Source: Polyangiaceae bacterium (GTDB taxonomy: Bacteria; Myxococcota_A; Polyangia; Polyangiales; Polyangiaceae). Taken from it: a stretch of DNA of 52,052 nt. The position numbers and the translations under genes were made by a program. The notes under the pieces are model-generated. The model was not told the origin of the DNA and did no database searches. It saw only the letters and a list, made by a program, of their open reading frames with translations. Shown one piece after another: positions 14,752-28,859 of the stretch; the stretch's first letter is position 1; each line of letters starts with the position of its first letter. Where the stretch lies: NCBI GenBank assembly GCA_023150915.1, contig JAKLKA010000039.1:1-52052 (forward strand), read 5' to 3'.

Positions 14752-14765
14752 CGGGAAAACGCCTC

Positions 14766-15662
14766 TTACCACGCGTGGACGCCGCGAGCCCCGAGCGAAA
14801 GCTCGAGCACCGCGTGCCCCAGCGCCGAGCGGCGGGCGCAGAGCTCTGCCGACGGCGGACCCCGACCCACGAACAGGGCCACGTCACCGCCACCGGCGCC
14901 GGAGGGCAGCACCACCGCGCCCTCGCGAGCGGCGATCGCGCCGAGCTCGGCGACGTCGGCGGTGACGATCTCGACGCCGGCGGCCTGGCCCAACGCGCCC
15001 AGGCCGCGGCGCTGCGCGTCGAGGTGGGTCAGAAGGTCGCCGGCGCGGCCCGCCGAAGCCGCCGCTGCCGCTTCTGCCGCCGCCGTGCACAGGCTCGCCA
15101 TGTGGGTCTCGAAGCGCGAGGGCTCGCGCGCGGCGAGCTCTTCGACCTTGGCCACGAAGTGGGCCGTGGACGCGGGCGCACCGCCGGCCCACACCTCCCA
15201 AGAGAGCGCGCCGGGCAGCGCGATCCGATCGCTGACCAGCCCCCCGGCGGACCGGCGAGCCACCAGGCTGCCGCCCAGGGCCGAGCAGAGGACGTCCACG
15301 CCGCTGCCCCCGCCCTGGGCCACGCGGTGCGCGTCGAGCGCGCGTTCGAGCACGGCGCCGGCGAGCGAAGCGTCGTCCCCGGTGGCTCCGGCGTCGAGCG
15401 CCAGCGCGGCCAGGCTGGCGACCAAGATGGCGGCGCTCGAGCCCAGCCCGAGCTTGCCCTTCGGGCCCCGCAACTCCGAGGCGTCGAACCACGGCGCGGC
15501 CGCCGTGCCGAGGGCCGCGCGCACCTCGGGCGTGACCCGCTCGGCCGGGCGTGCCGTGTCGGCGATCGCGTAGCGGGTCACGGCGGTCACGATGGCCGGC
15601 GCGCCGCGGAGCACGGCGTACGCCCCCGAGATCACCAGCTTGCCGGGGGCCCGCGCCCTCAC
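14766..15662 (-). CDS. GHMP kinase, probable phosphomevalonate kinase
   Basis: 298 residues. It has the three GHMP-kinase motifs: APGKLVISGAYAVLRG at the N-terminus, the ATP loop KLGLGSSAAILVASLAAL (about residues 70-87), and the C-terminal SGAGGGDVALFVG. Mevalonate kinase and the decarboxylase are both accounted for in this operon, so the remaining kinase step, phosphomevalonate to diphosphomevalonate, is the natural assignment; this part is inference from context. The GTG start overlaps the stop of the decarboxylase gene (GTGA). The sequence diverges from the other GHMP proteins of the operon, so recent duplication is unlikely. Confidence 0.85.
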   Translation of the reverse strand: MRARAPGKLVISGAYAVLRGAPAIVTAVTRYAIADTARPAERVTPEVRAALGTAAAPWFDASELRGPKGKLGLGSSAAILVASLAALALDAGATGDDASLAGAVLERALDAHRVAQGGGSGVDVLCSALGGSLVARRSAGGLVSDRIALPGALSWEVWAGGAPASTAHFVAKVEELAAREPSRFETHMASLCTAAAEAAAAASAGRAGDLLTHLDAQRRGLGALGQAAGVEIVTADVAELGAIAAREGAVVLPSGAGGGDVALFVGRGPPSAELCARRSALGHAVLELSLGARGVHAW

Positions 15663-16642
15663 GGAAGGCTCCGGGGATCTTCGTCGGTCAGCGCCGCATC
15701 GGGACCGGCGCCGGTGACGATGGTCCGCTCGACCCCGGGCACGCCTTCGACGCAGGCTGCGACGCGAGCGGCATGCTCGGGCAGGGTCAGCACCTTGACG
15801 TGGGGTCCGGCGTCCATGGTGTAAAACGCCGGGGTGCCGCGGGCACGCAGCTCGCGCACCGCGGCCATCACCGCCAGCGTGGTGGGCGTGAGGTAGATCA
15901 CGGCCGGGCTCGCGGCGAGCATCGAGGCGTGCATCATCAGCGCGCTCTGTTCCATGGCCGTGCCCAGGCGCTCGAAATCACGCTCCAAGACGCCGCGCTT
16001 CACTGCGTCGAACAGGGCCGGCGAGTGGCTCACCCAGGGTGCGTAGTAGGGGCTGGTGGTCGCGGTGTGCTGCATGCCCTGCGTCGAGCCGATGGCCTTG
16101 GGGCCCTTGGCCGTCAGCGTCACCACCATCGACAGCGGGAAGTGATCGCCGGGGGCGACCCGCTCGGCGGTGCGACCGCCGGCGGGCAGCGCCGCGAACC
16201 CGCCGAACAGCGATCGCGCTGCCGAGGCGCTGGAGGCGCGCGCGACGTCGCTCAGCGCCTCTAGTGACAGATCCAGGCCCAGGGCGCGGGCGCCGGCGAG
16301 CGCCAGCGCCGCGAACCCCGAGGCGCTCGACGCCAGGCCCGCCGCGGTGGGGAAGTCGTTGCGGCTCACCACTCGGGCAAAGCGCGACGTGCCTGCCCGG
16401 GCGCGCAGCCGATCGAGCAGCTGAACCACGCGCTCGAGCGGCCGTTCGGTGAGCTCGACGCCGTCGAGCTGGACATGATCGCGGCCCAGGTCCGGATCGA
16501 TCTCGACCTCGGTGATGGTGCGGAGCCCGGCGAGGGTCAGCGACAGGCTGGGAGTCGCCGGGAGGTTCTCGGCGACGCTGGCCTTGCCCCAGTACTTGGC
16601 GAGCGCGATGTTGGAGCACGCGACGGCGCGGATTCGGGTCAT
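15659..16642 (-). CDS. mvaD: Diphosphomevalonate decarboxylase
   Basis: Makes isopentenyl diphosphate from diphosphomevalonate with ATP. The 327-residue product is the usual size. Family-specific features are SNIALAKYWGK at the N-terminus, NDFPTAAGLASSASGFAALALAG (read in two parts: the Asp/Pro segment and the Ser-rich ATP loop), and FYTMDAGPHVKVL near the C-terminus. ATG 16642 overlaps the mevalonate kinase stop (ATGA). This is the most diagnostic gene for a true mevalonate pathway, as it has no role in the MEP route. Confidence 0.95.
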   Translation of the reverse strand: MTRIRAVACSNIALAKYWGKASVAENLPATPSLSLTLAGLRTITEVEIDPDLGRDHVQLDGVELTERPLERVVQLLDRLRARAGTSRFARVVSRNDFPTAAGLASSASGFAALALAGARALGLDLSLEALSDVARASSASAARSLFGGFAALPAGGRTAERVAPGDHFPLSMVVTLTAKGPKAIGSTQGMQHTATTSPYYAPWVSHSPALFDAVKRGVLERDFERLGTAMEQSALMMHASMLAASPAVIYLTPTTLAVMAAVRELRARGTPAFYTMDAGPHVKVLTLPEHAARVAACVEGVPGVERTIVTGAGPDAALTDEDPRSLP

Positions 16643-17535
16643 GGCGCGTCTGCCTTTGCTCCGACGCGTGTGCTGAAGCACGCGAGCCCGCCCTGGCGCC
16701 AGGCCGCCAGCACGGGCTCAGGGTCGTCGTCGCACAGCGCGATCACCGCGCCCCCACCCCCGGCGCCGGTCAGCTTCGCTCCGAGCGCCCCGGCGGCGCG
16801 GGCCAGCCGGCAGGCGGTCTCGATCTCTTCGGTCGAGACCATCAGCCCTGACAAGAGCATCTGGTTCAGATCGAGCAGGCGCCCCAGGCCCGGCAGATCC
16901 CCGGCTTCGAGCGCCAAGCGCGCGTTCTTGACCAGCGACTCGATCCCGGCCAGCGACTTGGCGAACACCTCCGGACGACGCTGGCCCAGCTGGGCCACGG
17001 ACTCGACCATCTGCTTGGTGCTGGCGGCCGGACCTGCCACCGCGACCCCCAGGGTGAGCGGGCGCCCGAGGCTCAGCGGCACCGGCCCGCCCTGGCGCGT
17101 GTACCAGATGCACCCGCCGTGGATCGCGGCCGCCGTGTCGATGCCCGACGGGTTTCCGTGGAACACCTGCTCCCACGCCGTGGCGGCGGCCAGAGTGCGC
17201 TCTGGCGAAGGGCTCCCCTCGAGGTCTTGCACCGCGCGTGCGACGGCGACCGCCAGCGCCGCCGACGAGCCCAGCCCGCAGCCCACCGGCAGCGCCGAGC
17301 TGGCCCGAATGCGCACGCCCGTCACGCCGAGCTCGGCGAGCAGCGCCGACAGCGCGCGACCCAGATCACTGCCGTCGCCCGGGCTGGCCGTGACGGAGTC
17401 GATCGAGAGCTCGGTGCTTGCTGCACGCTCTGCCTGGGCCGTGGCGCCGCGCTCGATGCCCGCGGCAATCGCGGGAACGCCGTGCACCACCGCGTGCTCG
17501 CCGAGCAGAATCACTTTGCCGCAGGCGTGCGCCAT
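16639..17535 (-). CDS. Mevalonate kinase
   Basis: Phosphorylates mevalonate. 298 residues with the complete GHMP set: CGKVILLGEHAVVHGVPAIA at the N-terminus, the ATP loop PVGCGLGSSAALAVAVA, NPSGIDTAAAIHGG with the catalytic Asp, and KLTGAGGGGAVIAL at the C-terminus. The GEHAVVHG form is typical of mevalonate kinases. ATG 17535 overlaps the stop of the polyprenyl synthase gene by one base (TGATG); a TTG one codon earlier is less likely. It is the second gene of the operon. Confidence 0.93.
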   Translation of the reverse strand: MAHACGKVILLGEHAVVHGVPAIAAGIERGATAQAERAASTELSIDSVTASPGDGSDLGRALSALLAELGVTGVRIRASSALPVGCGLGSSAALAVAVARAVQDLEGSPSPERTLAAATAWEQVFHGNPSGIDTAAAIHGGCIWYTRQGGPVPLSLGRPLTLGVAVAGPAASTKQMVESVAQLGQRRPEVFAKSLAGIESLVKNARLALEAGDLPGLGRLLDLNQMLLSGLMVSTEEIETACRLARAAGALGAKLTGAGGGGAVIALCDDDPEPVLAAWRQGGLACFSTRVGAKADAP

Positions 17536-18638
17536 CAATTTCGCCTGAGCGTCAGCACCCGAGCTGCCCCCTCGAGCAGCTCGATGCCGTCAGGCGGCAG
17601 GCGGCCGGCGCGGAGGGCGGACAGCGCAGAGGCCACCAGCTCGTCGATGCGCTCTTCGACCGCCGCGCGGGCGCCACAGCGCTCGATCACCTCGACGGCC
17701 AGCCGCAGCTCGGCGTCGGTGGCACGGGCGTTCCCCACCGCGGCCTTGAGCACGCGATGGTCGCGGCCCCGGGCGCGCTTGAGCGCCGTCAGCAGCACCA
17801 CCGTGTTCTTCCCGGCGCGAAGATCGCTGCCGAACGGCTTGCCGGTGGTCTTTGGATCACCGAACACGCTGAGCAGGTCGTCGCGCAGCTGGTAGGCGAT
17901 GCCGACCGGCAGTGAGAAGCGATCGAGCGCGGTGAGCAGTCGGCTGTTGGCGCCGGCCATCAGCGCGCCCATGCGCAGCGGGCCCCGGATGGTGTAGCTC
18001 CCGGTCTTGAGCTCGTACACCTTCTCGATGTCGGCGGCGTTGGCCATCAGATCGAGCTGCTGACCGGTGACCGCCGCCAGCTGCATCTCGGCGAAGCACC
18101 CGAGGACACTGCTCGCACGCTTGGGCTCGATCTCGACGCGCGAGAGCGCCTCGGCCGCCAGGGCCACGGCGTAGTCGCCGGCCAGGATGGCGGAGGCCTC
18201 GCCCTTGTCGCGTGAGCGCAGCCGGCGCGCGAGGGCGGCGTGGACGCTGGGGCCCCCGCGCCGCGTGTCGTCGCGGTCCATCCAGTCGTCGTGCACCAAG
18301 AAGTAGGCGTGCAACAGCTCGAGCGAGACCCCGGCGTCGAGGGCTGGCTCGAGGCTGGCCCCGGTGCTGGCCGCCCGGTACCCGGCCACCAAGAGCGCCG
18401 CGCGCGCGCGCTTGCCGCCCCGCAACGTCAGGTCGCGCAACGCCGAGACCATCTCGGTCATGCCGGGCCCGAACGCCTTCGCGGCGGCCAGGTGCTCGTC
18501 GAGGTAGCCGGCGAGGCGCGCGTCCACGTCGCGGCGCACCGCGGTGAGCAGCGCAGCGAAGGGGTTCTTGGCGATGGCCTTCGCCTTGCCCTTCGGCGGG
18601 CGCCGGCCTGGACCGGAAGTCCTCGACCTCTTAGGCAT
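17535..18638 (-). CDS. Polyprenyl diphosphate synthase (FPP/GGPP synthase family)
   Basis: Chain-elongating trans-prenyltransferase, 367 residues, which condenses IPP with allylic diphosphates. The substrate-binding LRGGKRARAAL, the first Asp-rich motif HDDWMDRDDTRRG, GDYAVALAAEAL and the second Asp region YQLRDDLLSVFGD are all present. The second motif reads DDLLS rather than the common DDxxD. The first 25 residues are a basic Lys/Arg/Pro/Gly extension. ATG 18638 has no clear ribosome binding site but lies only a few bases after a predicted transcription start. As first gene it would let the operon make both C5 units and longer prenyl chains; product length cannot be read reliably. Confidence 0.92.
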   Translation of the reverse strand: MPKRSRTSGPGRRPPKGKAKAIAKNPFAALLTAVRRDVDARLAGYLDEHLAAAKAFGPGMTEMVSALRDLTLRGGKRARAALLVAGYRAASTGASLEPALDAGVSLELLHAYFLVHDDWMDRDDTRRGGPSVHAALARRLRSRDKGEASAILAGDYAVALAAEALSRVEIEPKRASSVLGCFAEMQLAAVTGQQLDLMANAADIEKVYELKTGSYTIRGPLRMGALMAGANSRLLTALDRFSLPVGIAYQLRDDLLSVFGDPKTTGKPFGSDLRAGKNTVVLLTALKRARGRDHRVLKAAVGNARATDAELRLAVEVIERCGARAAVEERIDELVASALSALRAGRLPPDGIELLEGAARVLTLRRN

Positions 18639-18737: not shown

Positions 18738-19790
18738 ATGAGCGAGATCGGCAAGCGCAAGGACGACCACCTCGACCTCGCAGCCCGCGGCGACGTCGGG
18801 TTTCACCACACCACGACCCTCTTCGAGGCGGTCCGGTTCGTCCATGACGCGCTCCCCGAGCTGTCGCTGGACGAGATCGACACCTCTCAACGGGTTCTGG
18901 GCAAGACGCTGCGCGCGCCGATCCTGATCGCCGGCATGACCGGCGGCACCGAACGCGCGGCCGGCATCAACCGCCAGCTTGCGAAGCTGGCGCAGGCGCG
19001 CGGGTACGCCTTCGGGCTCGGCAGTCAGCGCGCCATGTACAAGGACCCTTCGGTGGCCGAGAGCTATCGGGTTCGCGACGTCGCCCCGGACGTGCTCTTG
19101 CTGGGGAACATCGGGCTGGTCCAGGCGGCTCAGATGCAGAGCGACGAGGTCGCGGCGCTGGCGCGCTCGGTGGCCGCCGACGCTCTGTGTCTGCACCTGA
19201 ACCCGGCACAAGAGGCCGTGCAGGCGGGCGGCGATCGCGACTTCCGCAACGGGCTGTCCACCATCGCGCGGCTGGTGAGCGAGCTGGCCCTGCCGCTGGT
19301 CGTCAAAGAGACGGGCTGCGGGATCTCGGGCAGCGTGGCCCGACGACTGCGCGCCGCCGGAGTGCGCCACCTGGACGTCTCGGGCGCCGGCGGCACGAGC
19401 TGGGTCGCGGTCGAGACCCAGCGGGCCCAGGCGTCGCGTCGCGGGCTGGGCGAGACCTTCTGGGAATGGGGGATCCCCACCGCCGCCAGCGTCGCGCTTG
19501 CCGCCGGGCACGGGTTCGACACCGTGTTCGCCACCGGCGGGGTGTCGTCGGGGCTCGACGTGGCCAAGGCGATCGCTCTGGGCGCCCACGCCGCCGGGCT
19601 CGCGCGGCCCGTGCTTCAGGCGCTCGAGGGCGGCGGCGAGACCGGCGTCGAAGACTTCTTCGACCGTGTCGAGGCCGAGCTCAGGACGGCCATGCTGCTG
19701 GTGGGCGCCCGAGACCTGGCGGCGCTCCGGCGAGCGGCGCGCGTGGTCGGCCCCGAGCTTTCGCTGTGGCTGGGGCAGGCCGGGGGCTGA
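18738..19790 (+). CDS. fni: Isopentenyl-diphosphate delta-isomerase, type 2
   Basis: FMN-dependent enzyme that interconverts IPP and DMAPP, needed because the mevalonate route yields only IPP. The 350-residue product carries the family blocks: KRKDDHLDLA at the N-terminus, PILIAGMTGGT, GLGSQRAMY, HLNPAQEAVQ with the substrate-binding Gln, VKETGCGIS, and the FMN-phosphate region VFATGGVSSGLDVAKAIALGA. It is divergent from the mevalonate operon across a 99-base gap. It ends six bases before the convergent thioredoxin-like gene. Confidence 0.95.
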   Translation: MSEIGKRKDDHLDLAARGDVGFHHTTTLFEAVRFVHDALPELSLDEIDTSQRVLGKTLRAPILIAGMTGGTERAAGINRQLAKLAQARGYAFGLGSQRAMYKDPSVAESYRVRDVAPDVLLLGNIGLVQAAQMQSDEVAALARSVAADALCLHLNPAQEAVQAGGDRDFRNGLSTIARLVSELALPLVVKETGCGISGSVARRLRAAGVRHLDVSGAGGTSWVAVETQRAQASRRGLGETFWEWGIPTAASVALAAGHGFDTVFATGGVSSGLDVAKAIALGAHAAGLARPVLQALEGGGETGVEDFFDRVEAELRTAMLLVGARDLAALRRAARVVGPELSLWLGQAGG

Positions 19791-19796
19791 GGCCAC

Positions 19797-20270
19797 TCAC
19801 TCGAGCAGGGCCCGCAGCCTTGGCGTGATCTCGGCCACGGCACCTTCGCCCTTGATCGACCCCTCCATGCGGCGCTCGGAGCAGCGGCCGTCCGCTGTCG
19901 GCAAGGCGAACAGCGGGATCATGCGCGACAAACAGCCGGCTTTGCGCAGCTCGGCCTCGTCTCGATCCCGATCGAGCTCGAGCAGCCTGAGGTTCGGGAA
20001 CGCGGCGTCGAGCAAGCCTTTGGCGGCGGCGTCGTGGAAGCGGGTGCAGGGCTCGCACCACGCGGCGCCCACGTAGACCACCAGCTTCTTCTTGTCGGCC
20101 TGAGCGCGGGCGGCTTCGCGCGCGATGGCGAGGACGCTGTCTTCGCCCGCCGCGAGCTTCACGATCTCCACCCTCCCCGTCGGTTTTGCCGGCTCGGGTC
20201 CGGGCGGCGGGCGGTCACTTTCGCAGGCGACGGCGCTGACGACCACGACCAGGGCGAGGGCTCGAATCAC
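19797..20270 (-). CDS. Thioredoxin-fold lipoprotein
   Basis: 157 residues with a GTG start. The N-terminal hydrophobic stretch ends at a plausible lipobox, AVAC16, followed by a Pro-rich linker. The domain has KKLVVYVGAAWCEPCTRFHDAA: a thioredoxin-type active site WCEPC, with C72 and C75. The cis-Pro is probably in RMIPLFALP. Such envelope thioredoxins reduce or isomerise disulphides or serve c-type cytochrome maturation. Two further Cys (KAGCLS, DGRCSE) are not part of the core fold. The substrate cannot be inferred. A 26-base imperfect palindrome lies in its short divergent promoter region. Confidence 0.85.
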   Translation of the reverse strand: MIRALALVVVVSAVACESDRPPPGPEPAKPTGRVEIVKLAAGEDSVLAIAREAARAQADKKKLVVYVGAAWCEPCTRFHDAAAKGLLDAAFPNLRLLELDRDRDEAELRKAGCLSRMIPLFALPTADGRCSERRMEGSIKGEGAVAEITPRLRALLE

Positions 20271-20282
20271 GGCCCCGCCAGC

Positions 20283-20308
20283 CTAACACCGGACCGGTCA
20301 CGTGTTAG
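20283..20308. promoter_or_regulatory. 26-base imperfect palindrome, candidate operator
   Basis: The two 13-base arms, CTAACACCGGACC and GGTCACGTGTTAG, match in 11 of 13 positions as inverted repeats, with outer arms CTAACAC/GTGTTAG perfect and an ACCGGT core. It fills the 49-base gap between the divergent thioredoxin and lipoprotein genes, where it could control both. A GTG at 20302 falls inside it, which argues for the later ATG start of the lipoprotein. Confidence 0.5.
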
Positions 20309-20319
20309 CTTGGCTCGCG

Positions 20320-21399
20320 ATGAGGCGCGGACACCGGCGGCCCTGGCTCGTGCTCGTGGCTTTGGCGCTGGTGGCGCCGGGCTGCGACTTCATGTGCGGC
20401 AAGGGGAAGCCCGGCGCCGGCGCCGACGCCTCGGCAGGCGACGCACCGGTGGGCATGGAAGTACTGAGCGCCGGCGGCGAGCCGCGCGCCAAGCTCGAGG
20501 TGGGGCGCTGGGCCGGGCTCGAGTACGTGGTCGAGCTCGAGAGCGATGGCTCGTTCGGTCGCACCGGCGATCCCCCCATCCAGGCCCCGACGCTGGTCAT
20601 GAAGACCCGGGTCGAGGTCCTGCGGGGCACGGCGGATCCGTTGATCCAAGAGCGCGACGGCAAGCCGCTGCGCCTGGTGGAAGAGCGCGCCACGCTCGAG
20701 CGCATCGGCGTACGAAGCGCCACGGCCCCCGCGGATTTCATCGGCAAGGTGAACGAAGCTCTCGGGCTCTTGAAGGGCCTGACCACCCGGGCGCTGATCG
20801 CCGAGAACGCCGAAATCCTGGAGGTGACCACCGAGCACCTGGGCGGGGTCGTCCCACCCCCCGAGATCAAGGGCTTCCTGGACGAGGCGCTGGGGGCTCA
20901 GCGCTCGTTTCCGCTCCGGCTGCCGCCGGTGCCGGTCGGGGTCGGTGCGCGCTGGCGGTTCAGCGTGCCGCTGGAGATCAAGGGGGTGAAGGCGACGCAT
21001 GTGGCCGACCTGACCCTGGTCGAGCTGACGGCCAGCACCGCGCGCATCGGCATTCGCGCGCGCCAGCAAGCTCCGAACCAAGAGGTTCCGCACCCGACCA
21101 TCCCCGGCTTGCGCGCGTCGCTGGCGGGGCTGCGTGGTGACTCCGACGGCGAGGTCACGCTCGATCGCCTGACGGCGTGCATCGTGGCTGCCCGCTTCAG
21201 CTCGACCACCTACCAGACCATGACGTGGCTCGAACCCGACGGCAACGACCGCACCGCGACCTTCATGCACGCCAGCGTGCAGCGAATTCGCGGGCGCTTG
21301 GGGGGCGCTGGCGACGCGGGCGACCTGCCCGAAGCCGCCGTGGTCGAGCGTCCGGATGGTGGCAGCACGGCCCCGCCCGAAGAGGACGAGGGCGAGTGA
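20320..21399 (+). CDS. Uncharacterised lipoprotein
   Basis: 359 residues, no family recognised. An Arg-rich N-terminus and hydrophobic segment end in the lipobox VAPGC22. The mature protein is predicted mostly beta (alternating hydrophobic residues in repeated short segments). It includes a conspicuous LPPVPVGVGARWRFSVPLEI segment around 208-227 that resembles a domain boundary in other myxobacterial lipoproteins. The tail is acidic and low-complexity (PPEEDEGE). The gene is divergent from the thioredoxin gene, and its stop directly abuts the stop of the convergent membrane protein gene. Periplasmic or outer-membrane location is inferred; function unknown. Confidence 0.78.
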   Translation: MRRGHRRPWLVLVALALVAPGCDFMCGKGKPGAGADASAGDAPVGMEVLSAGGEPRAKLEVGRWAGLEYVVELESDGSFGRTGDPPIQAPTLVMKTRVEVLRGTADPLIQERDGKPLRLVEERATLERIGVRSATAPADFIGKVNEALGLLKGLTTRALIAENAEILEVTTEHLGGVVPPPEIKGFLDEALGAQRSFPLRLPPVPVGVGARWRFSVPLEIKGVKATHVADLTLVELTASTARIGIRARQQAPNQEVPHPTIPGLRASLAGLRGDSDGEVTLDRLTACIVAARFSSTTYQTMTWLEPDGNDRTATFMHASVQRIRGRLGGAGDAGDLPEAAVVERPDGGSTAPPEEDEGE

Positions 21400-23151
21400 T
21401 CAGCCCGCGGGCATCACCACGAACTCTTCGCCCACCTTGGGCATGAATCCACGGCGCATACGCCCGAACTCCATCAGCAAGAAGACGCGGTTCGGGTCGT
21501 CCAAGCTCGAGTCGAATCGATAGCGGACGCGCTTGGGCGCCCAGCCGTCCACCTCGACCACGGTGATTTCCAGGCCTGGCAGCGCGACGCGATCTCCGGG
21601 GCGAAACGGCCGGCTCGGCGCCCGGAACAGCTGCGAGGTGGGGTCCTCGAACATGTGGCCGTGGACGACCGAGAGCTCGAGCGTGTCGTCGGCAGTGCGC
21701 GTCGCGCGCTGCGCCGAGCGGGCGATGCCCAGCACGCGCCAGCGCTTGGGCATGGGGGCGCCCTGGTGATTTCTGACCCAAGGCGGGTAGAGCAGCGCCG
21801 CGAGATCGCCGGTGGCGTTGATCAGCACCAGCTCTTGTCCGGCCACCTTGCGGTCATCGATCTCCGCGGCCAGGTGCTTGGCGCGGATCCCACCGACGAT
21901 CGTCTGCCAATAGTGGGTGTAGTCGCGGGTCAGCCGGGGCGCGTGGCCCAGGTGCCACAGGGCCAGCGGGGTGGTCACGAGCACGCGCAGCCAGGTCCCG
22001 AGGGTACGCTGCTCGAAGAGCCTCGCGCCCGAGTCCCAGATCACGGCCCCGAGCAACGCACTTCCGCCGAAGCTGGCGATCAGCAGCAGGCGCACCGAGG
22101 GCACCGTGCCCACCAGCGGCAGCATGGCCAGGAGCATGCCCAGAGCCGCGGCGCCCAGGCGGCGCCGACCTTCGGCGCTGCTGCGCCGCCAGGTGCCGAC
22201 CGCGAGCCCCAGCACCACCACCGCCGGCATCAGCGAAAGCGCGACCCGCGGCGAGCGCGCGAGCAGCTTGGCGTACACCTCTTCACCCGGCTCGAGCACG
22301 AACTCGGTCACGATCATCGACGGCACGCGGAGCAACGCCTCGAAGGCGAACTGAGCCGGGGCGTCGAACGGGCCGATGTACACCACCGAGCCCTTGGCGC
22401 CGTAGCCCAGCCCCACGTGCGCGCTCAGGTAGATGCCCGCCGGGATGGCCGCCAGCGCGAGCCCCCGCAGCCGCTCGGCGAGCGGGTCGCCCTTGCCGAG
22501 AAGCTCGAACGCGATCACGTAGCCCAGCGCGCAGATGGCGTATTCTCCCCCGGCGAGCGCCAGGGTGAACGCCGCCGGCGCCACCCACAGCCCCGGCTGC
22601 CAACGGTCTTGGCGGAAGCGCAGATAGGCCCACAGCCCGAGGGCGCCGAAGCTGGCGCTGATCAACGCGGTGCGGTTGCAGATCCAGGCGATGGGGGCGA
22701 CCAGGGACGAGTCGAAGGCCAGGATCGCGGTGGCGATCAGCGCGGCGCCCTCGCTGACCAGCCGGCGCGCCAGCAGGAAGTACGATCCGAGCAGCACCAG
22801 GGCCCAGAGCAGGGAATGCACGTGCTGCCCGCGGGGTGACAGGTCGAGCCCCCGCTGATCGAGCCAGAGCAGGGCGCTGGACAAGGGCCGCAGCAGGCTG
22901 AGCTTGAGCTCCGGGTGGCTCCACCAAGGCACCACGCCGCCGTCCATCATCGGGGCGAGCTCGCTCTGCCGATGCAGGAAGGCGTACAGGTCGAGGGGCG
23001 ACCGCGGCACGGGGTAGCGCCCCTCGAGCATCGCCCGGTTCAAGAAGTCGTCGGCGGCCAGACCGGCGTCCAGCGAGGGCAGGTGGAGCCAGACGGCCAC
23101 CGCCAGGATCAACGTGACGATGACGACGCTCTTCGCCGTCGGGCTCGACAT
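21400..23151 (-). CDS. Polytopic membrane protein, GT-C glycosyltransferase-like (paralogue A)
   Basis: 583 residues with about ten or more membrane helices and a soluble C-terminal region of roughly 150 residues. The first outside loop carries AADDFLNRA (Asp34-Asp35), in the place where GT-C glycosyltransferases hold a catalytic acidic pair. Next come HPELKLSLLRPLSSA (79-93), ICNRTALISASFG and YGAKGSVVYIGPF. The same blocks occur in the protein at 25409-27133. No named family is recognised; a lipid-linked sugar transferase is a hypothesis based on topology and motif position. ATG 23151 is chosen; a longer in-frame start at 23187 lacks support. Confidence 0.75.
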   Translation of the reverse strand: MSSPTAKSVVIVTLILAVAVWLHLPSLDAGLAADDFLNRAMLEGRYPVPRSPLDLYAFLHRQSELAPMMDGGVVPWWSHPELKLSLLRPLSSALLWLDQRGLDLSPRGQHVHSLLWALVLLGSYFLLARRLVSEGAALIATAILAFDSSLVAPIAWICNRTALISASFGALGLWAYLRFRQDRWQPGLWVAPAAFTLALAGGEYAICALGYVIAFELLGKGDPLAERLRGLALAAIPAGIYLSAHVGLGYGAKGSVVYIGPFDAPAQFAFEALLRVPSMIVTEFVLEPGEEVYAKLLARSPRVALSLMPAVVVLGLAVGTWRRSSAEGRRRLGAAALGMLLAMLPLVGTVPSVRLLLIASFGGSALLGAVIWDSGARLFEQRTLGTWLRVLVTTPLALWHLGHAPRLTRDYTHYWQTIVGGIRAKHLAAEIDDRKVAGQELVLINATGDLAALLYPPWVRNHQGAPMPKRWRVLGIARSAQRATRTADDTLELSVVHGHMFEDPTSQLFRAPSRPFRPGDRVALPGLEITVVEVDGWAPKRVRYRFDSSLDDPNRVFLLMEFGRMRRGFMPKVGEEFVVMPAG

Positions 23152-23164
23152 CGGGTGCGATAGT

Positions 23165-23207
23165 GGCGGGTTTCCAATGCTGCGCAAGGTCCATTAGGAT
23201 ACCCGCG
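23165..23207. promoter_or_regulatory. Divergent promoter region with imperfect inverted repeat
   Basis: Eleven-base arms GGCGGGTTTCC (23165-23175) and GGATACCCGCG (23197-23207) match 9 of 11 as inverted repeats around a 21-base spacer. TAGGAT (23195-23200) could be the -10 box for the UbiA gene. The layout fits an operator shared by paralogue A and the UbiA gene, but it is not proven. Confidence 0.3.
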
Positions 23208-23225
23208 AGGTTTTCTTCCCCCCCG

Positions 23226-24065
23226 ATGTCGAGCGCGCTGCGCATCCTGTTCGACGTGGCTGTCTTCCGCCTCCGTCGGCTCGAGATGGCGAACCTCGCG
23301 GGGGCGATCTCGGTGATGATTGCGCTGCGCTTGACCCTGGTCGAGATGCTGGTGCGCACGGGGTTTGCGCTCTTGCTCAACCTGCTCGCTTACCTGACCA
23401 ACGACTACTGCGATCTGGATCGCGACCTTCAGACCGGTCGCGCCCAGGAAAAGACGCGCTTCTTGGCCGAGCACCGGGGCGCGGCGCTGGGCGCGCAGTG
23501 GGCGCTGGTGGCGCTGCTTTCGGCCATCGCGCTGGTCTACAGCCCGGGCCTCTTGCTGGCGCTTTCGCTCGGGGCTGGCCTCTGCTGGCTGTATTCGGCC
23601 AAGGTCAAGCGCGTCCCCTTCGCCGACGTGCTGGCGATGGCCATCTGTGGTGGGGCCATGGCCCTGGTGGCGGTGCCCCTCGACCGCGGCCTTGGCTGGC
23701 TGTTGGTCGGCCAGCTCGGGCTGTTCTCGGGCGCCTTCGAGCTGATCCAGGTGCTGCGCGATCGGCAAGAGGACGCCGCGGCCGGCGTGGTCACCACCGC
23801 CGTGAAGCTGGGTGAGGCACGAACGCTGCTCTTGCTCCGCCTCTGGATGGCGCTGAGCGCCGCCTTCGCCACGCTGACCCTCCATCGTTTTGTCGGGCCG
23901 GCGCTAGCGCTCGCCATCTTGCTGCCTTATGGCCAGAGTGGTGCAAAAACCTACTGGAATCGGGTGCGGTTGGTGTTCGGCCTCGCCTGGCTGGCGATGA
24001 TCGTGGCCACCGTGCTGGGCGGCGGCAGTCATGGCCTGTGGCTCGCGACGGGGGCGGCTCGATGA
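23226..24065 (+). CDS. UbiA-superfamily prenyltransferase
   Basis: 279 residues with about eight or nine membrane helices. The first Mg-diphosphate motif is NDYCDLDRD near residues 60-68 (family pattern NDxxDxxxD); the second region is in LIQVLRDRQEDAAAG. These enzymes move a prenyl chain to an aromatic ring, sugar phosphate or glycerol phosphate. The acceptor cannot be read. The order, divergent from a GT-C-like gene and coupled to a Ser/Thr kinase (ATGA overlap at the stop), is not that of a ubiquinone, menaquinone or haem O operon. ATG 23226 is the likely start; no strong ribosome binding site is seen. Confidence 0.85.
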   Translation: MSSALRILFDVAVFRLRRLEMANLAGAISVMIALRLTLVEMLVRTGFALLLNLLAYLTNDYCDLDRDLQTGRAQEKTRFLAEHRGAALGAQWALVALLSAIALVYSPGLLLALSLGAGLCWLYSAKVKRVPFADVLAMAICGGAMALVAVPLDRGLGWLLVGQLGLFSGAFELIQVLRDRQEDAAAGVVTTAVKLGEARTLLLLRLWMALSAAFATLTLHRFVGPALALAILLPYGQSGAKTYWNRVRLVFGLAWLAMIVATVLGGGSHGLWLATGAAR

Positions 24066-25420
24066 CCGCGCTGCCGACCGCCGGGCAGCTGTTTGCCGGG
24101 CGCTATCGGATCGTCGACCGGCTGGGCCGTGGTGGGCACGGCGCGGTGTTCCGCGCCGTGGACGGCTTCCTCGACACCGAGGTCGCGCTCAAGATCCTCT
24201 TGCCCGAGCAGCTGGACGGCGTCGGGCGTGATCGGTTCCGGCGCGAGGCCGAGCTCGGCGAACGGCTGACCTGCCCACACAGCGTGCGCCTGCACGCTCA
24301 CGGCGAAGACGAGCTGGGCGTTCCCTACATCGCGTTCGAGCTCCTGGAAGGCCAGTCCCTCTCGTCGTGGCTGAGCGAGCGTGGCCCGCAGACCCCCGAG
24401 TCGACGGCGCGGATCGCGCGCGCCGTGCTCGACGCGCTGGCCGAGGCGCACGATCTGGGGATGGTCCACCGTGACATCAAGCCGGCGAACATCCACCTTT
24501 GCAGCTACGGCGGCCACGCAGATTTCGTCAAGGTGCTGGACTTCGGCATCGCCAAGCGTTCGGCCCGCGACGCCACGCAGCTCACCGCCGCCGACGTCGT
24601 GGTCGGCACCGCGCGGTACATGGCGCCAGAGCAGCTGCGAGGGGACGAGATCTCGCCCGCCACCGACCTCTACTCGCTGGGCTTGGTGATGGCCGAGCTG
24701 CTCGCGGGCGAGCCGGTGTTCCGCGGCACGACCATCGACGTGTGCATCGAGCAAGTCTCGCCGCGCAGCGTGCCGCTGACCGACTCGGTTCGAGGCTCGC
24801 CCCTCGGTGCGCTGATGGCGCGCGCCACCGACAAGGATCCGGGCCGGCGGTTCCAGTCGGCCCGCGAGTTCTTGGCTGCGCTGCCCGCGGCCGGGCATCG
24901 CGCCACGCTCCCCGACGACGAGCCGACCCAGGTCGTGCACGAATCGAGCTTGGAGCACCCGGACGACGCGTCCGGCGGGGCGCTGGAGGACCCGCCGAGG
25001 CGTGGCGCCACCGTGCTCTACGGGGAGCAACCCCCGATCGTCGGACCCAGCGTCGTTCCGCAGTCGTCGGTCGGCAAGACCCTGGCCTTCGGCGAGGTGC
25101 CGATCTCCGCCGCGCCCCTGGCCACGCCGCTCCCGGTCGCCGCCCCGGTCCCGAGCTCGAACCCGGTGTACGCCGCGGTGCCCACATCCCTCGCGCCGTC
25201 GTCGTCGGTGATGCTCTCGGTGCCGCGGTCGCACCCGGTGTACGTCTCGCGGACGTCGATCGCGCCCTCGTCGCCGCGCCCGGCGAGCTCGGCGTTGGCC
25301 TGGGCGATCGGCATCGGGGCGGCCGTGCTGTTGCTCGGCGCCCTGATCGTGGCGGGCGCCTATCTGGCGGCGACTGAGCCGGCGCCCGAGGCGCCACCGC
25401 CCCTGCCGTCAGCGCGGTGA
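24062..25420 (+). CDS. Membrane Ser/Thr protein kinase (PknB-type)
   Basis: 452 residues. The kinase domain is complete: glycine loop LGRGGHGAVF (21-30), Lys44 in VALKIL, HRDIKPAN with Asp138, DFG at 160-162, and the APEQL motif. A long Ser/Pro/Val-rich linker (about 290-405) holds two short echoes, NPVYAAVPTSLAPSS and HPVYVSRTSIAPSS, plus TVLYG and TLAFG. One membrane helix lies near residues 411-436, followed by only a short Pro-rich outer tail with no PASTA or sensor domain. The start overlaps the UbiA stop. The 3' end overlaps the convergent gene by 12 bases. Confidence 0.93.
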   Translation: MTALPTAGQLFAGRYRIVDRLGRGGHGAVFRAVDGFLDTEVALKILLPEQLDGVGRDRFRREAELGERLTCPHSVRLHAHGEDELGVPYIAFELLEGQSLSSWLSERGPQTPESTARIARAVLDALAEAHDLGMVHRDIKPANIHLCSYGGHADFVKVLDFGIAKRSARDATQLTAADVVVGTARYMAPEQLRGDEISPATDLYSLGLVMAELLAGEPVFRGTTIDVCIEQVSPRSVPLTDSVRGSPLGALMARATDKDPGRRFQSAREFLAALPAAGHRATLPDDEPTQVVHESSLEHPDDASGGALEDPPRRGATVLYGEQPPIVGPSVVPQSSVGKTLAFGEVPISAAPLATPLPVAAPVPSSNPVYAAVPTSLAPSSSVMLSVPRSHPVYVSRTSIAPSSPRPASSALAWAIGIGAAVLLLGALIVAGAYLAATEPAPEAPPPLPSAR

Positions 25421-27133
25421 GCCGGCGGAGGCGCTCAGCACGCGCCGCTCACCCGCGCGCGGCACGGTGGTGGGCTCGAAGCGCCGGCCATTCCAGCGAA
25501 CGAAGCGCAAGCGCTCACTCGCGAGCGGCCAGACGAAGCGAAAGGTCACGTTCAGCGCCTCGCCCGCCGGCGTGACCTCGGTGACCAGAGCTTCGATCGT
25601 GCCCAGGTAAACCCGGTCACCGGCGCGCATCGGCTGGGCGCGGCTACGGAAGATCCGATTGAAAGGCGCTTCGAGGTAGCCCCCAGCCACCCGGACCGCC
25701 AGCGCGCTGTCGTCGACCCGCTCGACCTCGACCGGTCCGCCGCTCGCGGAAAGGCACATCACTGCGGGCGACGGCCCGCGGCCCGCCCAATGGCGCAAGC
25801 TCCGGAGCTGCGAGCACAAGTAGTAATCCGGGGCGGTCAACGCGATGACCAGGTCGTCGCCGGTGGCGACCGTGGCGTAGGCGCTGGCGCTGGCCTCGAG
25901 GCTGAGCGCGTGCAGCCGCGCCATGGTGAGACTGCGCCAGGGCAAGAGCACCGGAGCCGCGACCACGTGGACCGCCAGCAGCGGAAGCGCCAGTGCCTTG
26001 GGCCACCCGCGGGCGCGATCGAGCGCGGCCGCGCCGCCCGCGGCGAGCGCGATGGCCGCGCCGATGCCCGAGAAGAACAAGGTGCGGTCGCTGGGCGAGG
26101 TCGCCGCTGCCGGCACCAGCGAGAGCACCATCCCGCCCGCGGCGAAGCGCACGACCCGGGTCAGAGCGGCGTCGGCGAAGTGCGTCGCGATCGCTACCAG
26201 GGCCAGGGCGCCCAGCCCGCCGAGGGCCAGCCACCCGTGGGCGCGGTCACCGAGGGCGACCCACGCATCCGCGGGCGGGTAGCCGAGTTGCCCGAGCAGC
26301 AGGGCGCCGAGCCGTGACGGCAGCTGGGCCGCGAACTCTGCCGGATGGTGGAGCGGGCTCAGGTAGATCCCCGAGCCGGCGGCGCCGTGCCCCAGGGCTC
26401 GGTAGGCCGCCGCCCAGCCCACGCCGACCGAGAGGGCGGGCCCGAGCGCGAGCAGGGCGCGCGGTCGGGTGTCGAGGACGAGGGCGTACATCGCCAGATA
26501 GGCAAGCGTGCCCAGGCCCAGCTCGCTGGATCCGAGCGACGCCGCGACGAACAGCGGGGCGAGCACCGCATGCCGCCGCGCGCCGTCGCGTCGCCAGCGG
26601 TCGTACGACAAGAGGGCTGCCACTCCGAACGTGGCGGCCAGCAGCGCGCTGCGGTTTGCCAGCCAGCCCACGGCATGGCCGTGGGCGTCGTCCACGGCGT
26701 AGATGAAACCGGCCAGGCCCGCGACCCACGGGACCGCCACCACGCGGCGCGCGAACGAGGTGACCAAGAATGCCAGGAGCGCCAGCAGCAGAATGCTCTC
26801 GAGGTGCATCAGCCAGACGGCGTCGCCGAGCACGCGATAGTCGAAGACCGTCCACGCGCTGGAGAGCGGTCGGAAGAACGACAGCCTGAGCTCAGGCGAG
26901 GTCAGCCAGGGCAAGAGCCCTGCAACCTGCCCGCCCCGGACCTGGGCGCCGCTTCGCAGGGTGGCGTACAGGTCGATGTTCGCGCCGCCGGAGCGCGTGG
27001 CGAGATCGCGCAACACGAAGTCCTCGGTGGCCATGCCGCTGCCCAGCGACGGGCTCACGAGCGCCAGCGCGACCAGAGCAATGACCAGGGGCGCGCGCGG
27101 ACTCGCGAGCCAGCCGCGCACACGCGGCAGCAC
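25409..27133 (-). CDS. Polytopic membrane protein, GT-C glycosyltransferase-like (paralogue B)
   Basis: 574 residues, same plan as the protein at 21400-23151: many N-terminal helices and a beta-rich soluble C-terminus. Shared blocks are MATEDFVLRD (Glu37-Asp38, aligned with the acidic pair of paralogue A), SPELRLSFFRPLSSA (79-93, at exactly the same residue numbers), LANRSALLAATFG, GSGIYLSPL, and IFRSRAQPMRAGDRV in the C-terminal domain. Overall identity is modest, so the duplication is old. GTG 27133 has GAGGAG upstream. It follows the small 27140-27460 gene by six bases and is surely co-transcribed with it. Enzymatic role is inferred, not shown. Confidence 0.75.
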   Translation of the reverse strand: MLPRVRGWLASPRAPLVIALVALALVSPSLGSGMATEDFVLRDLATRSGGANIDLYATLRSGAQVRGGQVAGLLPWLTSPELRLSFFRPLSSAWTVFDYRVLGDAVWLMHLESILLLALLAFLVTSFARRVVAVPWVAGLAGFIYAVDDAHGHAVGWLANRSALLAATFGVAALLSYDRWRRDGARRHAVLAPLFVAASLGSSELGLGTLAYLAMYALVLDTRPRALLALGPALSVGVGWAAAYRALGHGAAGSGIYLSPLHHPAEFAAQLPSRLGALLLGQLGYPPADAWVALGDRAHGWLALGGLGALALVAIATHFADAALTRVVRFAAGGMVLSLVPAAATSPSDRTLFFSGIGAAIALAAGGAAALDRARGWPKALALPLLAVHVVAAPVLLPWRSLTMARLHALSLEASASAYATVATGDDLVIALTAPDYYLCSQLRSLRHWAGRGPSPAVMCLSASGGPVEVERVDDSALAVRVAGGYLEAPFNRIFRSRAQPMRAGDRVYLGTIEALVTEVTPAGEALNVTFRFVWPLASERLRFVRWNGRRFEPTTVPRAGERRVLSASAGSPR

Positions 27134-27139
27134 CGGAGC

Positions 27140-27460
27140 TCACTCCTCGTCTTTCGGTCGAACCGGCGGCGGAGGGTGAGAGTGCGACACGCTGGACTGG
27201 CCGTGCTGGTAGGCGCGGCGCGATGCCTCTTGGTACAGCTCTTTGCCGCCCGGCGCGTCCGGGTGCTGCCGCATCAGCTGAATCAGCTTCTGCATCGCGA
27301 CCGGCGGTGGCACCGACTCGTCGAGTAGCAAGAGCTTGATCCGCAGCACCTCGATCGCCGGGGTCGACCCGGCCTCGTCGAGCTCGAGCCGAGCCGCGTC
27401 GTAGTCGCCCGCTTCCAACATCTCGTCGATCGCGCGCAGGTGCTCGGAGGGTTCTGACAT
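27140..27460 (-). CDS. Small TPR-like protein
   Basis: 106 residues, soluble, mostly helical. The segment EHLRAIDEMLEAGDYDAARLELDEAG resembles a single tetratricopeptide helix pair, and a second pair may span PAIEVLRIKLLLLDESV to AMQKLIQLMRQHP. The last 25 residues are Ser/His/Pro-rich and charged. It is the first gene of the unit with paralogue B, only six bases upstream, so it may be an accessory or adaptor of that membrane protein. No family recognised. Confidence 0.7.
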   Translation of the reverse strand: MSEPSEHLRAIDEMLEAGDYDAARLELDEAGSTPAIEVLRIKLLLLDESVPPPVAMQKLIQLMRQHPDAPGGKELYQEASRRAYQHGQSSVSHSHPPPPVRPKDEE

Positions 27461-27498
27461 GGGAGCGCTCGGGGTCGCCTCGGGGAGGGCCGGTCAGC

Positions 27499-27527
27499 AG
27501 TCTACGGAAGCTCGGCGACGCGAGCAA
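27499..27527 (-). promoter_or_regulatory. Candidate promoter for the small TPR-like gene and paralogue B
   Basis: Minus-strand TTGCTC (27527-27522), a 17-base spacer and TAGACT (27504-27499). The start would be near 27492, giving a leader of about 32 bases before the ATG at 27460. Confidence 0.4.
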
Positions 27528-27536
27528 AGCTCTTGA

Positions 27537-27565
27537 CCCCCGGCCCTTTTCGGCAGCGCCGGGGG
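27537..27565. promoter_or_regulatory. Inverted repeat upstream of the GAF-domain gene
   Basis: CCCCCGGC (27537-27544) and GCCGGGGG (27558-27565) form a perfect eight-base inverted repeat with a 13-base spacer, just ahead of a TACGGT box (27571-27576) that could be the -10 site of the GAF gene. An operator or a DNA hairpin is possible. Confidence 0.3.
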
Positions 27566-27627
27566 CGTGGTACGGTGGGCCGCGTTCGGGGGCGTCCCGG
27601 GCCGTATTCGAACGTGATGTCGAGGTG

Positions 27628-28479
27628 ATGGTGAGCGAGAAGTCAGGACGGCGCGGGTCGAGCGATGCACCGCCGCCCGATCTCAAGCGGGAGCGCGACG
27701 AGCTCTTGCACAGCATCTCGAAGGGTGCCCGCATCACCGAAGAGTTCACCCGCGAGCACGAGCGCATGGAGGCGAGGCTGCGCGAGCTCGAGACCGAGAA
27801 CGCCAGCCTGCGGGCCAAGGTCGAGACCGACTCGGCCGTGCGGGAGCTGCTGGAGAAGATCCAGCTGCTCGAGACCGAGAAGCGCGAGCTCTTGTCGCGC
27901 TTTCACGCCGCCGAAGCCGCATCGACCGAGGTGAGCGCGCGTGTGGAGGAGATCGAGGCCGAGTTCGCCAACCTGGCGAATCTGTTCGTGGCCTCGAACC
28001 AGCTCCACGCCAGCCTCTCGCCGCGCGGGGTCATGCGCCGCATCAAAGAGGTGCTGGCGCAGCTGGTGGGTGCCGAGCGTTACTGCCTGTACCTGTCCAG
28101 CGCCGACAAGAGCGAGCTGGTGCCGGTCGCCTTCGAAGGCGTGGCCGGCGAGCACATCGCCCCGGTGAGCATCGAGCGGAGCGCCTTCGGCGAGGTCTTT
28201 CGCAGCGGCGCCGCCGCCGTGAACGAAGACCGGGACCCGAGCCGGGGCGACTTCGACGCCCCCGCGGCGGTCATCCCGCTCAGCGTGGACGAACAGCGGG
28301 TCGGCGTCATCGCCATCTTCAGTACCTTGTCTCAGAAGCAGCGCTTCGACACCATCGACTTCGAGCTGTTCAAGCTCTTGGGCCAGCAGGCGGCATCGGC
28401 GCTGGTCAGCGCGAGCCTGTTCGCCGCCGCCGACCGAAAGCTGCCCGGTCTCGAGTCCTACATCGACCTCAGCGTGTGA
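27628..28479 (+). CDS. Coiled-coil and GAF-domain protein
   Basis: About 283 residues. Residues about 20-115 are a long coiled coil rich in Glu/Arg/Leu heptads. Residues about 118-275 form a GAF-type sensor domain: SNQLHASLSPRGVMRRIKEVLAQLV, then RYCLYLSSADKSELVP, AFGEVFRSG, and FELFKLLGQQAASAL as the closing helix. There is no kinase, cyclase or output domain, so it likely passes a signal by protein contact. The partner may be the CheY-like protein whose GTG overlaps its stop. Start is ambiguous among GTG 27625, ATG 27628 and GTG 27631; GAGG lies at 27622-27625. Confidence 0.85.
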   Translation: MVSEKSGRRGSSDAPPPDLKRERDELLHSISKGARITEEFTREHERMEARLRELETENASLRAKVETDSAVRELLEKIQLLETEKRELLSRFHAAEAASTEVSARVEEIEAEFANLANLFVASNQLHASLSPRGVMRRIKEVLAQLVGAERYCLYLSSADKSELVPVAFEGVAGEHIAPVSIERSAFGEVFRSGAAAVNEDRDPSRGDFDAPAAVIPLSVDEQRVGVIAIFSTLSQKQRFDTIDFELFKLLGQQAASALVSASLFAAADRKLPGLESYIDLSV

Positions 28480-28859
28480 AAATGGCCGAATACTCCTGCT
28501 TGATTGTCGAAGACTCGCCGATGATGCGGCAGCTTCTGGTGTTCGCTCTCGCCCGGGTGAAGAACCTACGGGTCACCGAGGCCGACGACGGCGTCGACGG
28601 GCTGCGCAAGCTCGCTTCGGCGCGCTACGACATCATCGTCACCGACATCAACATGCCCATCATGGACGGGCTGAAGCTGGTCAAGCGCGTGCGCAGCGAT
28701 CCGGTCCACAAAGACACGCCGATCGTCATCATCACCACCGAAGGCTCGCACGAGGACCGACAGCGCGCGCTTCAGCTCGGTGCCAACGCCTACATCACCA
28801 AGCCCATCCAGGCGCCGCAGGTGATTGCAACCGTCAAAGAGCTGCTGAAGATCGAGTAG
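28476..28859 (+). CDS. CheY-like single-domain response regulator
   Basis: 127 residues, only a receiver domain. The acidic pocket E12-D13 (VEDSP), phospho-acceptor D57 in VTDINMP, Thr88 in IITTEGS and Lys109 in ITKPI are all in place, so phosphorylation should be possible. There is no output domain. The GTG at 28476 overlaps the GAF gene stop in GTGA; an ATG two codons later could also be used. No histidine kinase is adjacent; the nearest is at 46132. trpF begins only five bases after the stop. Confidence 0.93.
   Translation: MKMAEYSCLIVEDSPMMRQLLVFALARVKNLRVTEADDGVDGLRKLASARYDIIVTDINMPIMDGLKLVKRVRSDPVHKDTPIVIITTEGSHEDRQRALQLGANAYITKPIQAPQVIATVKELLKIE

Follow-up and report, generated by a model that had tools for sequence, protein, structure and literature searches.

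UbiA-family enzymes that feed GT-C-fold glycosyltransferases are described in excerpts of PMC11127046 and PMC10994848 as making pentofuranose donors. Excerpts of PMC11127046 define pentofuranose three-component systems, composed of a PPPRS UbiA, a MATE flippase and a GT136 GT-C enzyme, and the mycobacterial arabinan pathway, as outlined in excerpts of both sources, encompasses Rv3806c, DprE1/E2 and the Emb and Aft GT-C enzymes. Here we analyze a 52,052-nucleotide contig from a Polyangiaceae bacterium (JAKLKA010000039.1 of assembly GCA_023150915.1; the whole stretch is referred to as the window), in which the genes for two paralogous membrane proteins, designated P1 and P2, enclose a UbiA-family gene and a protein kinase gene:

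21400-23151, minus strand: P1, a predicted GT-C-fold membrane protein of 583 residues from the ATG at 23151 (AlphaFold2 model and VIA-align)
23226-24065, plus strand: UbiA-family prenyltransferase of a separate subfamily (PF01040, 64.7 bits against a cut-off of 34.2)
24062-25420, plus strand: Ser/Thr protein kinase (PF00069, 140.1 bits against a cut-off of 31.7)
25409-27133, minus strand: P2, a paralogue of P1 and predicted GT-C-fold membrane protein of 574 residues (AlphaFold2 model and VIA-align)

The P1 and UbiA genes are divergent and the kinase and P2 genes convergent, with a 12-base overlap, while the junction between UbiA and the kinase (CTCGATGACC) is an ATGA overlap. The original prediction, made from the sequence alone, had these coordinates, the gene order and the ATGA junction right. 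It also stated that no system of this layout had been described, which holds in part. That UbiA can be paired with GT-C enzymes is already known in general, as excerpts of PMC11127046 and PMC10994848 document, but the UbiA of the window lacks defining features of the three-component systems, from which the locus differs. No description of the layout in myxobacteria was found among the matches listed from the open-licence PMC literature.

The likeness to the three-component systems, as far as excerpts of PMC11127046 portray them, lies in the association of a UbiA-family gene with a GT-C-fold membrane enzyme and in the motif I sequence NDxxDxxxD. In contrast, the window UbiA presents RDxxxD instead of R..E in loop IV, a Pfam scan of the eight proteins of 19797-28479 detected no phosphatase or flippase family, there are two GT-C paralogues, and the genome has a separate phosphoribosyl synthase gene. 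The mycobacterial arabinan pathway likewise has a UbiA-fold enzyme feeding GT-C enzymes, and the predicted fold of P1 and P2 matches EmbB, AftA and AftD; the same differences apply, together with the absence of oxidoreductase and epimerase families among the eight proteins scanned. A third point of comparison is the archaeal pair of digeranylgeranylglyceryl phosphate synthase and geranylgeranyl reductase (GGR). Both Asp motifs, profile matches to 4tq3 and 6m31 and the presence of GGR at 8 of 31 loci are in common with it, but the window UbiA scores under the NCBIfam cut-offs and GGR is absent from the window locus.

Paralogy and predicted fold of P1 and P2

P1 and P2 are paralogues, with 28% identity over almost their full length (BLASTP of the single pair, E 5e-32). 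With P1 as query, its own genome yielded not only P2 (E 7e-36) but also a third copy, encoded on a different contig, G000:C107 (E 7.8e-47), and by sequence comparison both matches are far beyond chance. The ordered motif blocks that had been predicted to unite the two proteins were confirmed at their positions: HPELKLSLLRPLSSA in P1 and SPELRLSFFRPLSSA in P2 both begin at residue 79, and are accompanied by DDF at 34 and EDF at 37, NRTAL at 159 and NRSAL at 160, GSVVYIGP at 254 and GSGIYLSP at 253, and RPGDRV at 517 and RAGDRV at 503 (P1 and P2, respectively). These P1 positions are counted from the ATG at 23151; an upstream TTG start yields a 595-residue form, which is the length used for the structural model and for the D46/D47 numbering below.

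Homologues of these proteins, hereafter P, occur in 81 of the 144 genomes of the order (E 1e-5) and in 89 of the 282 Myxococcota genomes sampled (E 1e-20). The P alignment (A1) comprises 56 of 62 P open reading frames (ORFs), leaving out two repeats of members of L039 and L044 (L008 and L013), two sequences from the same genus as L052 and L059 (L060 and L061), and L016 and L043. The first-loop acidic pair, with D or E at 46 and D at 47, is invariant in all 56 members, as are W88, R100, P101, H122, W168, E215 and R366. The two ORFs from L016 and L043 are 872-878 residues long and carry extra C-terminal sequence. One family of the order harbors 10-12 P matches per genome, several of them in tandem (L039 on G035:C72, L055 on G035:C152, L056 and L057).

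The AlphaFold2 models of P1 and P2 were built from five sequences, the two window proteins and three others from loci L033 and L034. For P1 (pLDDT 68.4, pTM 0.67), all 18 Foldseek matches at E <= 0.001 are oligosaccharyltransferases or complexes containing one, with ArnT, Pmt4 and AftA further down the list, and the first 48 VIA-align entries all have the GT-C fold, with Z running from 20.3 (8age, 4.6 A over 328 residues) to 9.8, before it falls to 4.2 at the next entry. For P2 (pLDDT 67.9, pTM 0.68), GT-C-fold proteins occupy the first 43 places in VIA-align, from Z 19.2 for Pmt4 (4.2 A over 306 residues) down to 9.3, and are followed by unrelated entries at a Z of about 6. The fold matches of both proteins include EmbB, AftA, AftD and chains of the GPI transamidase. 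A DD motif in the first loop (EL1) is described for the GT-C clan in excerpts of PMC7801869, and the acidic pair of P1 and P2 resembles in this respect the TMTC and PMT_2 proteins treated there, from which P1 and P2 differ in having neither a TPR domain nor a Pfam model above cut-off. The models thus lend good support to a predicted GT-C fold for both proteins, and the fold together with the acidic pair supports their placement as predicted members of the GT-C superfamily, in line with the GT-C-like nature first proposed for them.

Several results weigh against this assignment. Residues 40-96 of the P1 model fall under pLDDT 50, so that part of the first loop is modeled with low confidence, and Foldseek returned weaker matches for P2, none of which counted at E <= 0.001 (best 0.001, PglB). 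No Pfam family scores above cut-off for P1 or P2: P1 reaches 12.9 and 11.0 bits against PMT and PMT_2 (cut-offs 22.7 and 26.1) and P2 matches neither at E 1, while PMT_2 matches appear in 11 of the 56 aligned P members at E up to 0.1 (best 4.9e-7). NCBIfam returned no match for P1 or P2 up to E 1, and a PDB sequence search with the A1 profile yielded no meaningful match (best E 0.9, photosystem II Z).

PIG-U of the GPI transamidase has the GT-C fold and is not known to have transferase activity. P1 and P2 could similarly possess the fold without being transferases, a reading compatible with the GPI transamidase chains among their fold matches and with the lack of a curated family for either protein. 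The invariance of the first-loop acidic pair and of the other polar residues across the 56 aligned members speaks for catalytic function, and we deem a non-catalytic role decidedly unlikely.

The C-terminal beta domain of P2 (25409-25740 in the window, residues ~465-535) showed a weak CorC/HlyC-associated likeness, which at a Z of about 6 was discarded as too weak.

Class of the UbiA-family enzyme

A PF01040 score above cut-off and two Asp-rich motifs place the window protein in the UbiA superfamily. The UbiA alignment (A5) covers 28 of the 31 UbiA loci of the order, leaving out L098, L103 and the cut L104, and in all 28 members both motif I, NDxxDxxxD (N59, D60, D63 and D67), and motif II, RDxxxD (R178, D179 and D183), are invariant, along with Y123 and K128. 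The protein scores under every NCBIfam cut-off listed for it, and its closest models are generic "prenyltransferase" models. A PDB search with the single sequence gave no match up to E 10. With the profile, the best match was the prenyltransferase 4tq3 (5.7e-7), presumably from A. fulgidus, which aligned over both motifs. It was followed by the phosphoribosyltransferase 8J8J (2.5e-5), whose alignment was confined to the first half, by UBIAD1 (1.6e-4) and by the digeranylgeranylglyceryl phosphate synthase 6m31 (4.1e-4).

The described systems raise the possibility that this UbiA is a polyprenyl-phosphate phosphoribosyl synthase making a lipid-linked pentose donor for P1 and P2, in a variant of the three-component arrangement. 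The pairing logic would be that of PMC11127046, as its excerpts present it, and the motif I of PPPRS and DPPRS, NDxxDxxxD, is present throughout the aligned members. Three PRK12324 phosphoribosyltransferase models are matched by 7, 9 and 11 of the 28 UbiA members (best 1.6e-8), and 8J8J ranks second among the PDB profile matches. For the window UbiA itself, no PRK12324 model is listed by NCBIfam up to E 1. According to excerpts of PMC11127046, characterized polyprenyl-phosphate phosphoribosyl synthases keep R366 and E369 in loop IV, and alanine at either position left in vivo activity. The window subfamily keeps the Arg, but the Glu three residues after it is not conserved and the Asp pair of RDxxxD is found instead. 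Furthermore, another protein of the same genome scores above the phosphoribosyl synthase cut-offs (243.4 against 234 and 240.4 against 207 bits), and the phosphatase and flippase families are missing from the eight proteins scanned. We therefore consider a phosphoribosyl synthase unlikely at this locus. In the 20 kb retrieved for the phosphoribosyl-synthase-type UbiA gene of this genome, at L133:9409-10752 (G000:C217), the called ORFs include no P, M639 or M718 (the latter two families being introduced below).

The same genome encodes, elsewhere, one protein above the MenA cut-off and one above that of heme O synthase (CtaB), while the window UbiA scores below cut-off against the MenA and 4-hydroxybenzoate models and CtaB is not listed for it. 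Assignments of the window protein as MenA, heme O synthase or phosphoribosyl synthase were rejected on these NCBIfam scores and on the copies encoded elsewhere. Since both Asp motifs are kept, the phosphoribosyl synthase signature is absent and the genome encodes MenA, heme O and phosphoribosyl synthases at other loci, the protein appears to be a separate UbiA, most likely a prenyl-diphosphate transferase and probably of the classical type, for which curated models predict no acceptor.

Membrane-protein partners across UbiA loci

The UbiA clade was detected in 31 of the 144 genomes of the order, with one locus each. P lies at 14 of these loci, and when two further families, M639 (about 630 residues) and M718, are taken into account, at least one of the three is present in the fetched flank of 26 loci, in 22 of them within ~100 bp as measured between the ends of the profile matches. 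These neighbor counts are lower bounds, since UbiA often lies near the end of its contig (L082, L084, L093, L098, L100, L103 and L104). As a control, the remaining five UbiA-family loci in the window genome were compared over 1.5 kb flanks, and P, M639 and M718 were absent from all of them. Outside the order, a partner was identified within 1.5 kb flanks at six of eight UbiA loci, one of them with P.

The complete order of P1, UbiA, kinase and P2 is kept in three genomes of one genus (the window, L033 and L036), with a GNAT-like gene inserted between kinase and P2 in L036. This conservation and the ATGA overlap between UbiA and kinase are what favor a kinase-regulated unit of four genes, as the original prediction envisaged. 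Nevertheless, L035 (G076), from another genus, keeps P1, UbiA and P2 without a kinase, UbiA abutting P2 directly, and only 3 of the 31 loci, all from a single genus, have a kinase gene that immediately follows UbiA in the same orientation. At other loci the kinase is convergent next to UbiA (L087) or further off (L083 and L102). A kinase-regulated pathway is thus not borne out, a four-gene regulated unit appears very improbable, and the kinase is probably a genus-specific neighbor that does not belong to the conserved unit.

Other counts argue against a general pairing. No P, M639 or M718 was found at five of the 31 loci (L081, L082, L083, L084 and L088); L082 and L084 lie near contig ends, but L081, L083 and L088 have 3-10 kb per side and still no partner, and outside the order L113 and L116 lack all three within 1.5 kb. 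Seen from P, just 4 of 40 regions contain UbiA, the regions having been hand-picked from the P match list, mostly as best matches, and P is found in 81 genomes of the order against 31 for UbiA. P is nevertheless enriched where UbiA occurs (27 of 31 UbiA genomes versus 54 of 113 others, p 7e-5). On a P tree of 62 rows, the UbiA-linked label requires eight changes, of which supported branches impose at least seven, compared with 14.3 for shuffled labels (no shuffle out of 500 was as low), indicating that linkage is clustered and that the loci are not independent. The rows were those of A1 plus six P genes chosen for lying at UbiA loci, and hence the 16 of 62 that are linked do not represent a rate. 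Judged from this tree, the clustered P-UbiA linkage was nonetheless gained or lost on several occasions. The predicted association of the membrane proteins with UbiA consequently stands from one side: the link between UbiA and its partners is real when seen from UbiA, and rare when seen from P.

M639 is present in 24 of the 144 genomes, 22 of which have UbiA (the other two are G123 and G023). This corresponds to 22 of 31 UbiA genomes against 2 of 113 others (Fisher p 1e-16), or 13 of 17 against 2 of 53 when counted by genus (p 5e-9), with phylogeny ignored in both tests. In the nine UbiA genomes without M639 (G005, G021, G048, G056, G058, G064, G067, G070 and G084), the gene beside UbiA is P in five and M718 in four. 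Some of the genomes counted are incomplete (G070 at 64%, G067 at 81%), and the M639 gene of the window genome lies on another contig, away from UbiA; both facts detract from the association. That gene, at G000:C149:15140-16996 (within L132:8000-11000), is separated by 4 bases from the radical-SAM-like gene (identified by eye) that precedes it.

One of 13 M639 members matches PF10131 (3.6e-7), a family counted in the GT-C clan in excerpts of PMC7801869, and hhalign relates M639 to P with E 0.001 and a probability of 21%; these matches give weak support to M639 being a GT-C protein. M718 shows no Pfam match in any of the three members of its set (A4, three of six M718 matches, the partial ones being left out), and hhalign detects no signal between M718 and either P or M639. 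With M718-like matches in as many as 77 of 144 genomes, only the position of M718 beside UbiA is informative.

Neighboring genes and a candidate prenyl-lipid pathway

The surroundings of the four genes include further candidates for lipid metabolism and a small ORF:

13414-18548, minus strand: genes resembling those of HMG-CoA reductase, mevalonate kinase and decarboxylase, plus a polyprenyl synthetase with DDxxD (identified by eye from translations)
18750-19790, plus strand: gene resembling type 2 IPP isomerase (fni), identified by eye from its translation
27140-27460, minus strand: small TPR-like ORF (Pfam TPR_14, below cut-off)

In tblastn synteny comparisons, the mevalonate and polyprenyl synthetase genes are all present in L036 and in part in L035, whose stretch is cut. 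The fni-like gene occupies the same place in L035, L036, L046 and L085, and tblastn locates the small TPR-like ORF in the same place in L033, L035, L036 and L085. A response-regulator receiver protein at 28476-28859 of the window is unusually conserved, being 97-100% identical in other genomes of the family (L033, L035, L036, L038, L046 and L085).

A profile search identified a GGR-family flavoprotein near UbiA at 8 of the 31 loci, and the reductases of L046 and L035 score 212.9 and 198.9 bits against an NCBIfam cut-off of 158.8. At the window locus there is no GGR, and no stretch of the window genome passes the TIGR02032 cut-off, a result that counts against the reading favored below; a GGR-like gene was accordingly rejected as part of the window's own system. 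Excerpts of PMC12004948 report that a GGR homologue of Myxococcota reduces sterols, and for this reason the reductase at UbiA loci may have another substrate. A membrane protein of about 790-860 residues with a spermidine-synthase-like stretch is found at 12 of the 31 UbiA loci (L035, L036, L038, L046, L085, L096, L102 and others). Proteins of this type also occur near P genes without UbiA (L039, L040, L044, L048 and L069).

This neighborhood bears on a different explanation, in which the UbiA product is quinone-like or terpenoid and unrelated to sugars, and the GT-C genes merely share a region of membrane-lipid genes. The locus abuts mevalonate genes, the closest NCBIfam relatives of UbiA are the generic prenyltransferase models below whose cut-off it falls, the spermidine-synthase-like proteins indicate that the neighborhood is not restricted to GT-C genes, and most P genes lie away from UbiA. 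Against such a coincidence, the pairing is maintained in L092, L095 and L099, loci at which the mevalonate, fni and idsA queries found no match and an IMP dehydrogenase-like gene, named by eye, lies nearby, and UbiA pairs with different P lineages and co-occurs with M639. We regard this explanation as rather unlikely, though it is the most serious of those competing with a role in glycolipid formation.

The reading that we tentatively favor, while holding it short of probable, is that UbiA makes a prenyl lipid which its GT-C-fold partners glycosylate or use. Supplied by the neighboring mevalonate and prenyl-diphosphate genes, UbiA would use a prenyl diphosphate to prenylate a small acceptor at the cytoplasmic face, and in some relatives the chain might be saturated by the geranylgeranyl-reductase-like flavoprotein adjoining UbiA. 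P1 and P2 would subsequently act in the periplasm on or with the product, the prenyl lipid being glycosylated by the GT-C partner or serving it as acceptor or carrier. In different lineages the partner slot would be filled by P, M639 or M718, which we infer to perform the same job, and the kinase would be a local addition. The lipid or glycoconjugate pathway of the original prediction may thus fairly be inferred. The more specific proposal of a so far undescribed Myxococcota pathway, in which a prenylated lipid made by this UbiA subfamily, and saturated by GGR in some lineages, is glycosylated or used as a periplasmic carrier by exchangeable GT-C-fold P, M639 and M718 proteins, is possible but doubtful.

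These results provide a predicted fold for a Myxococcota-wide family for whose members P1 and P2 neither Pfam nor NCBIfam has a model above cut-off, and reveal an almost exclusive co-occurrence of UbiA with M639. The recurrent placement of a putative classical-type UbiA gene next to those of GT-C-fold proteins or further large membrane proteins is suggestive of a novel prenyl lipid or glycolipid and, in a phylum known for unusual lipids, the locus points to concrete genes and lipids to look for.

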